Shown here: piece by piece, positions 25,104 through 41,560 of the stretch
Position numbering within the stretch: position 1 is the stretch's first letter
Layout of the letters: every line of letters starts with the position of its first letter
NCBI GenBank assembly: GCA_017647025.1
Contig: JAGCLL010000104.1
Location: forward strand, 1 to 41,560
DNA from: Alistipes sp.
Lineage (GTDB): Bacteria > Bacteroidota > Bacteroidia > Bacteroidales > Rikenellaceae
Direction of reading: 5' to 3'
DNA: 41,560 nucleotides
Translations under genes and position numbers: made by a program
Notes under the pieces: model-generated
The model's database searches: none
Told to the model about the DNA's origin: nothing
Seen by the model: the letters and a program-made list of their open reading frames with translations, nothing else

Positions 25104-27092
25104 ATGAATTACAGAGTTTTAACCCAAGCCGAAATTGAGACTTTACAGGCACAACAGTGTCGAGCAGAGGATTGGGCAACCATCAAAGTTCACCCCGATT
25201 TTTCTACTGACCACATTCACAATGTTCGCTTTTCGGGCAACATCACCCTCGGCTTTTTTGCCGAGTCATTCACGCGTATAGGAGGCATAAATATGCACTC
25301 AGGCATTCGCAATGCCGCACTCCACAATGTAGAGGTGGGCAACAACTGCCTGATTGAAAATATCAACAACTACATCGCAAACTACACCATAGGAGAGAAC
25401 TCCATTATTGAGAATTGCGACCTGATTGTCGTAGATGGCAAATCGAGTTTCGGTAATGGTGTCGAAGTGTCGGTATTGAACGAGACAGGAGGTCGTGAGG
25501 TGGTTATCACCGACAAACTCTCGGCACACACCGCCTATATTATGGCACTCTACCGCCACCGACCACAACTCACCAAGTGCTTGCGAGATATTGCTATAAG
25601 TTATAGCGAGGAGCACTCTTCCGAGATGGGTACAATTGGTGCAAATGTCGAAATTTCCAACTCTGGTATCATCAAAAATATCCGTATTGGCGATTACTGT
25701 CGTATTGATGGTGTAAACCACCTCACAAACGGAAGTTTGAATAGTTGCAAGGAGGCTCCAATCTATATCGGACACGGCGTTATCTGCAACGACTTTATTG
25801 TTTCGAGTGGTTCTACGATTGATAGTGGTGCAACATTGAGCCGTTGTTTCGTAGGTCAGGCCTGCACACTCGGCCATAACTACTCCGCTTCGGACTCACT
25901 CTTTTTCAGCAACTGTCAGGGCGAGAATGGTGAGGCTTGTGCAATTTTTGCAGGTCCTTACACCGTAACCCACCACAAATCGACACTCCTCATCGCAGGA
26001 ATGTTCTCGTTTATGAATGCCGGCTCTGGCTCTAATCAGAGCAACCATATGTATAAACTTGGCCCTATCCACCAAGGAACTTTGGAGCGAGGAGCAAAGA
26101 CTACATCCAACTCATACATCCTGTGGCCTTCTCGTGTGGGAGCATTCTCATTGGTTATGGGACGCCATGTCAGCAACTCCGACACTACCAACTTGCCATT
26201 CTCGTACCTTATCGAGCAGAACAACACTACACACCTTGTTCCAGGCGTAAACCTCCGCTCGGTAGGTACTATCCGTGATGTGCAGAAGTGGCCAAAGCGT
26301 GATCGCCGTACAGATCCAAACCGCCTCGACCTTATCAACTACAACCACCTCAGCCCTTACACCGTGCAGAAGATGTTGAAGGGTAAGGCGATACTCAAAG
26401 GTTTACAGCAGGCGAGTGGCGAGTTGTCGGACATATACTCGTTCCACAGCACCAAAATCAAGAACTCTTCCCTTCGCAAGGGCATAAAGTTCTACGATGT
26501 GGCTATCCACAAGTTTATGGGCAACTCTATCATCAATAGGTTGGAGAATTTGCAATTCACCTCTGACGAGGATATTCGCAAGCGCCTCCGCCCCGACACA
26601 GAGATTGGCGTTGGCGAGTGGGCGGACATCTCTGGTTTAATTGCTCCAAAGAGCGAAATCGAGCACTTAATAAATGCTATCGAGAGTGGCAAAACCACCC
26701 AACTATCAGAGATAAATAGAGCCTGGGAGCAGATGCACGCCAACTACTACACCTACGAGTGGACTTGGGTTTACAACAAAATCGAGGAGTTCTATGGCAT
26801 TGCACCAGAGAATCTTACAGCCAAGGATATAACCAAAATCGTAGAGCAGTGGCGAGATGCAGTAGTATGGCTCGATAAGATGATTTACGAGGATGCACGC
26901 AAGGAGTTCTCGTTGGCTTCACGCACTGGCTTTGGCGCAGATGGCTCACGCCAAGAGAAGGATAGCGACTTCGAGCAGGTGCGAGGCGACTTCGAGAGCA
27001 ATACTTTTGTATGCACAGTGCTCAAACACATCGAGGCCAAATCGGCACTCGGTCAGGAGTTGATTGACAGATTAGCGCATCTGACTAACTAG
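25104..27092 (+). CDS. DUF4954 left-handed beta-helix protein
   Basis: A 662-residue protein with DUF4954 features, known in Bacteroidetes. The first ~360 residues are rich in hexapeptide-type repeats of a left-handed beta-helix (NVEVGNNCLIENI, YTIGENSIIENCDLI, NIRIGDYCRIDGVNHL, ATLSRCFVGQACTLGH). The rest is alpha-rich (ELIDRLAHLTN at the C-terminus). This fold is shared with sugar acyltransferases and nucleotidyltransferases, but no clear catalytic motif marks a substrate. No signal peptide is seen, so it is cytoplasmic. It follows aroB at 15 nt and ends before a strong terminator. Function unknown. Confidence 0.82.
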   Translation: MNYRVLTQAEIETLQAQQCRAEDWATIKVHPDFSTDHIHNVRFSGNITLGFFAESFTRIGGINMHSGIRNAALHNVEVGNNCLIENINNYIANYTIGENSIIENCDLIVVDGKSSFGNGVEVSVLNETGGREVVITDKLSAHTAYIMALYRHRPQLTKCLRDIAISYSEEHSSEMGTIGANVEISNSGIIKNIRIGDYCRIDGVNHLTNGSLNSCKEAPIYIGHGVICNDFIVSSGSTIDSGATLSRCFVGQACTLGHNYSASDSLFFSNCQGENGEACAIFAGPYTVTHHKSTLLIAGMFSFMNAGSGSNQSNHMYKLGPIHQGTLERGAKTTSNSYILWPSRVGAFSLVMGRHVSNSDTTNLPFSYLIEQNNTTHLVPGVNLRSVGTIRDVQKWPKRDRRTDPNRLDLINYNHLSPYTVQKMLKGKAILKGLQQASGELSDIYSFHSTKIKNSSLRKGIKFYDVAIHKFMGNSIINRLENLQFTSDEDIRKRLRPDTEIGVGEWADISGLIAPKSEIEHLINAIESGKTTQLSEINRAWEQMHANYYTYEWTWVYNKIEEFYGIAPENLTAKDITKIVEQWRDAVVWLDKMIYEDARKEFSLASRTGFGADGSRQEKDSDFEQVRGDFESNTFVCTVLKHIEAKSALGQELIDRLAHLTN

Positions 27093-27106
27093 TACAGTTT
27101 GCAGAC

Positions 27107-27140
27107 AAAAACCGGGATGTTTGTTACATCCCGGTTTTTT
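27107..27140 (+). terminator. Strong intrinsic terminator after the DUF4954 gene
   Basis: A 14-bp perfect stem, AAAAACCGGGATGT at 27107-27120 with ACATCCCGGTTTTT at 27126-27139, 5-nt loop, then a T. It is the clearest terminator in the window and closes the aroB-DUF4954 operon. Confidence 0.93.
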
Positions 27141-27153
27141 GTTATATCTTACT

Positions 27154-27276
27154 AAAATCGTCAATGATGAGATTATTTTTGTGCGAAGTAAGGCGATGAA
27201 AGCGCAGCATAGTAAGCCTATGTGAGCATTTCAGCGTCCGAAGATTCGTGCAAAAAGAACTCATCAGAACGATTTT
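27154..27276 (+). repeat. Hairpin repeat element, copy 1
   Basis: A 123-bp imperfect palindrome between the convergent DUF4954 and folA genes. Outer arms: AAAATCGT (27154-27161) and GATGAG pair with CTCATC and the folA 3' end. Second stem: TTTTTGTGCGAA (27176-27187) with TTCGTGCAAAAA (27245-27256), 12 bp with two G-U-type pairs. Core: GGCG, TGAAA/TTTCA (27197-27201/27229-27233) and CATAG/CTATG (27208-27212/27218-27222) with a 5-nt TAAGC loop. The last outer bases overlap the folA stop. The core recurs at 41171-41272 with compensatory changes. Strand is given by the wobble pairs. Confidence 0.85.
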
Positions 27277-27749
27277 CTCACTAGATCAATGAAGGTAAAC
27301 CCTCCATCATACTCTTCACCTTGAGCGAACTCCTCACGGGCAACCTCCTGCCACTCGGAATAGTTGATTTCAGGGAAGAATGTATCGCCCTCGTAGTTGC
27401 GATGAACGATGGTCAGATACAACTTGTCAGCCAACGGCAATGCCTGCTTATAAATCTGCGCTCCACCGATGATAAATACCTCCTCATCGGACGGGAACAT
27501 CTTAACTGCCTCCTCGATAGAGTGTGCAACCAAGCAACCCTCGAATTCGCTTTCGCCACGAGTAATGACTACATTTGTGCGCTTTGGCAGTGGGCGACCA
27601 ATAGACTCGAAGGTCTTACGCCCCATAATAACGGGGTGTCCCGTAGTGGTAGTACGGAAACGACGCATATCCTCTTTGATATTCCACAATAAGGCGTTCT
27701 TATCGCCTATAACGCCATTTTCTGCAATGGCTACAATAATTGAAATCAT
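27264..27749 (-). CDS. folA: Dihydrofolate reductase
   Basis: A 161-residue enzyme that reduces dihydrofolate with NADPH and closes the folate cycle that thymidylate synthase drives. Motifs: MISIIVAIAENGVIGDKNALLW at the N-terminus (LLW in place of the usual LPW), the acidic substrate-binding Asp in IKEDM, GHPVIMGRKTFESIGRPLPKR and FIIGGAQIY. Length is normal. The C-terminal codons overlap the outer right arm of the hairpin element (27154-27276). It lies 57 nt after a FISUMP-like gene, at the end of the minus-strand run that begins with DUF4290. No clear own promoter is seen. Confidence 0.95.
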   Translation of the reverse strand: MISIIVAIAENGVIGDKNALLWNIKEDMRRFRTTTTGHPVIMGRKTFESIGRPLPKRTNVVITRGESEFEGCLVAHSIEEAVKMFPSDEEVFIIGGAQIYKQALPLADKLYLTIVHRNYEGDTFFPEINYSEWQEVAREEFAQGEEYDGGFTFIDLVRKSF

Positions 27750-41111: not shown

Positions 41112-41170
41112 TTAGAGGCGTTAGGGGCGTTAGAGGAATTTTTAGTTCTATTAACACAGAAAATTAGAGG

Positions 41171-41272
41171 TAATTGAGGAAATTTTGCGCCAAGCAAGGC
41201 GATAAACCCGCAGCATAGTAAGCCTATGTGAGGAGTTTAGCGACCGAAGATTGGTGTAAAATTTACCAATTA
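41171..41272 (+). repeat. Hairpin repeat element, copy 2
   Basis: The second copy of the element at 27154-27276, between panD and the DUF456 gene. Outer stem: TAATTG (41171-41176)/CAATTA (41267-41272). Second stem: 41180-41193 with 41251-41264, 14 bp with two G-U-type pairs. Core: GGCG, TAAAC/GTTTA (41203-41207/41235-41239), CC/GG (41208-41209/41232-41233) and CATAG/CTATG (41214-41218/41224-41228) with the same TAAGC loop and the same bulged A. The TAAAC/GTTTA and CC/GG pairs differ from copy 1 but still pair. Confidence 0.85.
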
Positions 41273-41286
41273 GAATAATTTTATTT

Positions 41287-41560
41287 ATGGATACTTTGTT
41301 ATCAATTCTTGCCGTTATATTCGGTGTAGTGGGTTGTGTGGGTTGCATCGTACCCGTATTGCCTGGTGTGGCGTTGGCGTATGCAGGTTATGTCTGCTTG
41401 TACTTCTGCTCATACGCCGATATTTCGGTGGCTTGGTTGGTGGTATTCGGTGTGCTGACCGCTATTGTTTCGGTGCTCGACTATGTGTTGCCATCGTATA
41501 TGACCAAGAAGTTCGGTGGCTCGAAGGCTGGTGAGCGAGGTGCTATGGCGGGAGTTCTCG
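41287..41560 (+). CDS. DUF456 membrane protein, 3' end outside window
   Basis: The first 91 codons of a DUF456-type inner-membrane protein. It starts with MDTLLSILAVIFGVVGCVGC and contains LPGVALAYAGY, two transmembrane segments, then the family pattern SVLDYVLPSYMTKKFGGSKAG just before the edge. About 160 residues is usual for the family. Function unknown. The start codon lies 15 nt after hairpin element copy 2. Confidence 0.8.
   Translation, partial: MDTLLSILAVIFGVVGCVGCIVPVLPGVALAYAGYVCLYFCSYADISVAWLVVFGVLTAIVSVLDYVLPSYMTKKFGGSKAGERGAMAGVL

Follow-up and report, generated by a model that had tools for sequence, protein, structure and literature searches.

Two hairpins in the window

The window, by which we mean the whole analysed stretch of 41,560 nt from Alistipes sp. 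(contig JAGCLL010000104.1), carries two hairpins with a common core, one overlapping the end of a DHFR gene and the other lying directly before a DUF456 gene. Both are delimited here by R1, a covariance model built from 24 full copies of the element in the same genome; copies 1 and 2 are part of its training alignment, and these 24 copies match by construction. The features discussed in the text are the following.

27106..27141, plus strand: terminator-like hairpin with T-run, left of copy 1 and after the plus-strand gene 25104-27092 (read by eye)
27153..27277, plus strand: copy 1, whole ERIC-like hairpin (R1 136.2 bits, E 1.1e-29 for the whole genome; fold and covariation)
27190..27194, plus strand: copy 1, 5' strand of the outer conserved internal loop, AAGGC (ARGGC is near-invariant in 23 Bacteroidales copies)
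27204..27226, plus strand: copy 1, conserved core with the GCAG strand of the internal loop, the apical hairpin (6 bp, 5-nt loop) and the TGAG strand (core pattern matched exactly)
27239..27244, plus strand: copy 1, 3' strand of the outer conserved internal loop, CGAAGA (alignments of own and Bacteroidales copies)
27264..27749, minus strand: DHFR gene; its final codons and TGA stop fall within the right end of copy 1 (called from the ORF list and by the gene caller; Pfam DHFR_1, E 2.5e-62)
41159..41283, plus strand: copy 2, ERIC-like element (R1 130.4 bits, E 3.1e-28)
41210..41232, plus strand: copy 2, conserved core (core pattern matched exactly)
41287..41560, plus strand: DUF456 gene, beginning 3 nt past copy 2 and running off the window (gene caller; Pfam DUF456, E 2.1e-15)

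Given this arrangement, copy 2 would sit in the leader of the DUF456 gene. A preliminary description had located both hairpins correctly but drawn them slightly too short, at 27154-27276 and 41171-41272. The three compensatory changes that it listed between the copies were confirmed by re-reading (27198/27232, G-C against A-T at 41204/41238; 27201/27229, A-T against C-G at 41207/41235; and 27202/27227, G-C against C-G at 41208/41233), and the bulged A is indeed present at 27228 and 41234. The TAAGC loop had also been called conserved, which does not hold beyond the loop length and, mostly, the first T; five of the six apical pairs are invariant across the 24 own-genome copies. The AAGGC strand is present also in most enterobacterial ERICs of our ERIC alignment, and the strand opposite ARGGC, CGAAGA in copy 1, reads AACGNAGA in most Bacteroidales copies. 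Scanning the window with Rfam 15 gave nothing above the gathering threshold except a tRNA.

Copies across the Alistipes sp. genome

In the 2.04-Mb, 87% complete genome, R1 finds at least 79 matches at E <= 0.001 (150 of 728 candidates scored), two of them in the window. Should contigs C57 and C59 end in one and the same repeat (identical over 110 bases), one copy enters this count twice. The same element copy does lie near both of these contig ends (L010 and L011), and the repeat therefore probably breaks the assembly. Allowing up to three mismatches, the 23-nt core occurs at 32 genomic places, against none for the reversed control, and the core that the preliminary description saw shared by the two hairpins is accordingly non-random. 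The element is a 125-nt imperfect palindrome dispersed between genes, and none of the 70 copies placed against called genes overlaps a gene by more than 60 nt. Head-to-tail tandem copies occur, as do copies that are hybrid or truncated and whose pairing is broken (for example at L018:1501, L022:1501 and L028:1632).

A second short dispersed repeat of this genome, about TTTCTTGTCAGAAGTCGTGAGATGTGGTGCATCGCA, is found whole or in part within 60 nt to the left of several copies (L172, L271, L285, L287 and L294).

Conserved fold and folded strand

From the outside in, the element consists of a long outer stem, an ARGGC internal loop, an inner stem, a GNAG/TGAG internal loop and a 6-bp apical hairpin. 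The outer stem varies in sequence from copy to copy and keeps its pairing, and the ends read AAAATCG..CGATTTT or variants of it. Counted over the 24 aligned full own copies, the structure comprises 40 pairs, and 94.7% of the pair cells pair, as against 79.9% in shuffles and 34-46% in slid alignments. Double changes are seen in 26 pairs and amount to 122 cells, compared with 33.7 in shuffles (none of 500 as high); in 23 Bacteroidales copies, which were aligned without structure, there are 133 such cells against 43.6. Copies with broken pairing, which had been named as a possible objection, do exist in hybrid and truncated form, but the full copies keep their pairs to the extent just given.

A G.U pair closes the apical hairpin in all 24 own copies, in 22 of 23 Bacteroidales copies and in 10 of 11 enterobacterial ERIC sequences. 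Since G.U cells outnumber A.C cells (72:8 in the own, 52:3 in the Bacteroidales and 37:9 in the ERIC alignment, the cells not being independent), we take the plus strand to be the strand that folds. The earlier reading as a plus-sense structured RNA was thus right about the structure and the strand, but a G.T bias is equally expected from single-stranded DNA; the folded plus strand is RNA or single-stranded DNA, and the bias does not distinguish the two.

Some 12-16 nt to the left of the hairpin are C-rich and G-poor, with a G fraction of 0.07-0.12 in own copies and 0.10-0.16 in other Rikenellaceae copies, compared with about 0.16-0.26 further out. On the other side, an A comes next after the right T-run in 41 of the 70 own copies and in 46 of the 92 from other Rikenellaceae; these counts bear on the question of a TA duplication and come from occupied sites only.

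Occurrence in other taxa

We scanned contigs with a core pattern of 16 fixed bases, for which about 120 chance matches are expected by estimate, and claim kinship only where hits fold or score with a model. The matches listed include many Rikenellaceae and scattered members of other phyla, and most of the 20 pattern loci that were folded form this long hairpin too. L090 and L093 were excluded as relatives, having the core alone, no long hairpin and an R1 E of about 1. Besides its matches in the own genome, the covariance-model search was positive in further Rikenellaceae and in other taxa, namely Desulfobulbaceae (E 1.2e-10 and 1.5e-10), Balneolales (8.6e-10), a MAG labelled Clostridia (label as given; 3.3e-7) and Rickettsiella (3e-5). 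An order-wide search matched in 16 of 198 genomes (17 candidates scored per genome) and a phylum-wide search in 48 of 395 (8 candidates scored in each), the own genome being included in both counts. One family accounts for 41 of the 48 matching genomes in the phylum, and we read it as green sulfur bacteria because the FMO protein is present in all 13 of its genomes that were tested; it was found in none of four others.

A second covariance model, R2, was built from 23 Bacteroidales copies only, 21 of them from order-search loci and two from L094. It recovers the own copies L005 (E 5.6e-7) and L006 (E 7e-7) and is positive in 10 of 12 further genomes, with at most 150 candidates scored in each. 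The counts are at least 122 in a Desulfocapsa MAG, at least 71 in one Balneolales MAG and 18 in a second Balneolales genome, 14 in Fodinibius, 22 and 26 in Desulfobulbaceae, 17 in a Bacteroidales, 10 in the MAG labelled Clostridia, 7 in Rickettsiella and 2 in Rheinheimera. Two deltaproteobacterial MAGs (G203 and G204) gave no R2 match, and the long hairpins seen there (L044 and L080) remain unbacked. R2 leaves out the loci L182, L191, L197, L204 and L207 (genomes G070 and G174), which hold divergent hairpins with GCAAGGC and AACGAAGC loop strands and a different core, such as TTGCATATTGCTTATATGG; this group is perhaps a sub-branch, perhaps a look-alike.

The core pattern also matched seven viral contigs, and a viral repeat was rejected as an explanation because just one of the seven folds as the element. 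That one, at L428:1742 in a viral-labelled IMG/VR contig of 4558 bases, is a copy that folds well and has the strands AAGGCGCG and AACGCAG. Weak matches of miRNA models at other loci were taken as generic hairpins.

Position relative to genes

The copies have a marked polarity towards their neighbours. We used a symmetric test that scored an open frame of at least 120 codons whenever the right end of the element lay between -25 and +10 nt from the stop of the antisense ORF. Among the own copies, 43 of 70 end on the right at an antisense stop, against 5 in the mirror arrangement (binomial 1.4e-8), and among 92 copies from other Rikenellaceae the figures are 69 and 3 (binomial 2.6e-17). These 92 are a subset of 115 R1 hits, the 23 omitted being partial, at an edge, clustered or weak; the omitted hits give 9 against 0, and all 115 together 78 against 3. 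For 83 copies from other non-enterobacterial genomes the counts of 14 and 5 are not significant (P 0.06). Ten annotated enterobacterial ERIC loci, judged by eye, show the polarity twice (L146 and L149) and its mirror twice (L410, and L412 at a distance of about 10 nt), so that the preference is not reproduced in enterobacterial ERIC. In Yersinia, one orientation of ERIC is favoured beside stop codons. Rikenellaceae copies that are not at a stop codon often have their right end shortly before a start codon.

To the right of the own copies (70 of the 79 matches), the neighbouring gene lies on the other strand in 47 cases and on the same strand in 21, with none seen in 2. In these 47 cases the plus strand would run antisense to the gene in contact with it. 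Of the mobile or regulatory RNA family first proposed, the mobile-like dispersal is the part that we retain.

The strong preference for one orientation at stop codons, together with the conserved fold, could also be expected of a cis-regulatory RNA or terminator that is held by selection at gene ends and does not move. What was found at the DHFR gene argues against such a fixed element: copy 1 supplies the last codons and the stop, and R1 detects no element at any of 22 fetched DHFR loci from the same genus (24 other same-genus genomes searched). On this comparison copy 1 is a species-specific insertion at this gene. Tandem and hybrid copies, the location of some copies away from stop codons and the patchy spread over the order, with the 16 matching genomes among 198 given above, point the same way, and we regard a fixed cis-acting RNA as very improbable.

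Probable kinship with ERIC repeats

Contrary to the initial impression that the hairpins match no known family, they are built like the ERIC repeats (also IRU or RU-1; 127 bp, Enterobacteriaceae and Vibrionaceae), and covariance models connect the two by way of intermediates. ERIC repeats, which gave ERIC-PCR its name, were described in 1990-91 according to PMC2229807, and a 2024 review places them in Enterobacteriaceae and Vibrionaceae (PMC10969869). Size, imperfect palindromy and intergenic dispersal are alike; the ERIC core, GGAG-hairpin-TGAC, is close to the GCAG-hairpin-TGAG of the element, and AAGGC and AACGCAG internal-loop strands as well as a hardly varying G.U pair at the base of the apical hairpin occur in both. 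Comparing an E. coli core, GGAGCTTACTAAAGTAAGTGA (L149), with a Bacteroidales one, GGAGCTTACTGATGTAAGTGA (L192), shows 2 differences in 21 bases. The element is unlike ERIC in its outer arms, which vary freely with compensation, in its hosts, which belong to other phyla, in its stop-codon polarity, which in Rikenellaceae is much stronger than in the ten enterobacterial loci, and in its ends, from which the TATA-bearing terminal repeats of ERIC are absent.

The covariance models were applied in both directions. With its filters switched off, R2 returned 13 matches at E <= 10 over 13 gammaproteobacterial loci (46 kb). It matched 11 of 12 enterobacterial loci at the ERIC and on the right strand only, and ranks 1-10 were all ERICs, with a best E of 7.5e-4 and a tenth of 0.35; at L414 the core alone was found (E 1.8), and L416 and the Rheinheimera locus L036 were missed among the 13 loci. 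The 12 loci were taken from 14 fetched, L148 and L150 being omitted as the same site as L147. Because several of the loci are near-identical, and L146 and L415 wholly so, the 11 matches do not amount to 11 independent tests. The reverse model, R3, was built from enterobacterial ERICs only and run on 26 loci. It detects Rheinheimera L036 (E 3.9e-14), Balneolales L209 (2.4e-4) and, among Bacteroidales, L186 (2.5e-4), L194 (3.7e-4), L190 (8.7e-4), L188 (8.9e-4) and L184 (3.8e-3), the others being weaker. On the own genome it is weak, matching 5 of 8 loci at the element with E 0.28-1.1, and of the 26 loci L007, L008, L024, L218, L066 and L211 have no match at the element. R1 in turn gave no match on four E. 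coli ERIC loci. Since R3 is weak on the own copies and R1 misses the E. coli ERICs, the link between own copies and ERIC runs through intermediates.

These scores have to be weighed against the possibility that MITE-like palindromes of separate origin arrived at a similar hairpin by convergence, in which case the family in Bacteroidota would be mobile and unrelated to ERIC. Such convergence would agree with the weak direct scores, with the different ends and with the capacity of long palindromes to score by shape alone: R3 also hits a palindrome at L035:5132-5213 on both strands (21-23 bits, E 0.002-0.005) and L208:1726 (18.6 bits, E 0.028), and since these off-targets equal many true matches, long hairpins alone can reach such R3 scores. 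It would not lead one to expect the element and ERIC to share both internal loops, an apical hairpin closed by G.U and the strand, or the reciprocal model matches to fall on the element and on the right strand. In addition, ERIC cores score above nearly all pairing-matched decoys: when 1e6 random hairpins of identical pairing were run against the Bacteroidales core profile, 7-178 of them equalled each of five ERIC cores and 1933 equalled the sixth (L410). We therefore consider convergence unlikely, and the element is likely related to ERIC in sequence and structure by way of the Bacteroidales intermediates. It is an ERIC-like variant outside Gammaproteobacteria and not ERIC proper, because its terminal repeats differ and the direct match between own copies and ERIC is weak.

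The palindrome at L035:5132-5213, in the Desulfocapsa MAG, is near-perfect, differs from the element and overlaps a weak miRNA-model match; it is a useful decoy. Searching 274 gammaproteobacterial genomes with an exact ERIC pattern gave no match; this pattern is strict, and enterobacteria are perhaps hardly sampled in that set.

Candidate mobilisers

A mobiliser has been found neither for ERIC nor for the element, and to our knowledge nobody knows what moves ERIC repeats. Among known systems, REP/RAYT repeats (GTAG-tagged) are likewise palindromic, dispersed and tagged at the hairpin foot, and the GNAG at the foot of our hairpin recalls REP tags. The element might accordingly be a REP of large size that a Y1 transposase mobilises, and Y1_Tnp (PF01797) is present in 19 of 24 element-bearing genomes, the own genome being among the 24. 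It has, however, no match in the own genome or in G207, G208, G209 and G202; the element is much longer than a REP, and no Y1 gene is attached to it: at 20 Y1 loci (one or two per genome, among the Y1 matches listed) R1 found the element in none, and R2 gave two 18-bit matches only, both around the RAYT at L254 with its other repeats. Y1 was thus rejected as the mobiliser for want of association in 24 genomes and 20 loci, and we give hardly any credence to a RAYT origin. L254 was likewise rejected as an element-flanked RAYT, its flanking repeats belonging to another family. The locus (L254:1-1400, genome G070) holds a RAYT-type Y1 gene flanked on both sides by REP-like repeats of its own (TGCAGATAAATCTGCA and GCCTACATTGTGTAGG), which look unrelated to the element.

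IS630/Tc1-mariner MITEs are similar in being small, in needing no ORF and in often having TA near their ends; they are unlike the element, which has variable arms and no constant terminal repeats. DDE_3 exceeded the cut-off in 3 of 19 bearing genomes, with no match in the own genome, G199, G201 and G209. RVT_1 did so in 12 of 19, with two genes in the own genome and no match in G201 and G209. Because they have no match in several high-copy genomes, neither DDE_3 nor RVT_1 appears to be a general mobiliser; the absence of a gene from the own genome is in itself weak evidence, since this genome is 87% complete.

Proposed mobility and relation to known systems

We consider it probable that the two hairpins of the window are copies of a 125-nt dispersed element which is likely ERIC-like, non-autonomous and mobile, the enzyme predicted to move it being encoded elsewhere. 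In the mechanism that we propose, a predicted protein or complex would recognise the plus strand in its folded form, be it RNA or single-stranded DNA, through its loops and not through the sequence of its stems, and this predicted mobiliser would then insert a copy of the element beside genes. An element placed at a stop codon would become a hairpin in the 3' UTR of its neighbour, where it could alter mRNA decay by analogy with ERIC in Yersinia. For the latter, an effect on the upstream mRNA via RNase E is described in PMC2229807 and PMC10969869; PMC2759123 describes the addition of RU-1 to the 3' ends of genes, and PMC10969869 the insertion of ERIC at gene 3' ends.

More tentatively, and with rather more doubt than confidence, ERIC may be a twig of an old, phylum-spanning mobile class that is characterised by a folded strand recognised by two loops, by polar insertion at stop codons and perhaps by RNA-copying machinery. 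An RNA primed from the cut coding strand would then have its 3' end at the right end of the element and its 5' leader in the C-rich, G-poor stretch on the left. If ERIC is a branch of a class that occurs also in green sulfur bacteria, Balneolales, Desulfobulbales and gut Bacteroidota, with up to at least 122 copies per genome, then a comparison of hosts can narrow down the mobiliser, the conserved loops show which features it has to bind, and the polarity at stop codons becomes a testable rule of insertion.

Our literature search, which covered titles and the beginnings of abstracts of open-licence papers and is no proof of absence, found no report of such elements outside Gammaproteobacteria. 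The term "ERIC-like" does occur in the literature, including in the typing of Bacillus by ERIC-PCR. Among Rfam families, RF02818 (V_AS5, Vibrio RNA AS5) is like ERIC in having a consensus with an AUAG..CUAUGuGA core. The Rheinheimera ERIC at L036 (424-548) matches this family over its full length with 24.6 bits (E 0.0028 in 221 nt), which is far below the gathering score of 96, and the window holds no RF02818 match at gathering level, so that the similarity is a lead only. To us, V_AS5 looks like an ERIC that was entered as an antisense RNA gene.
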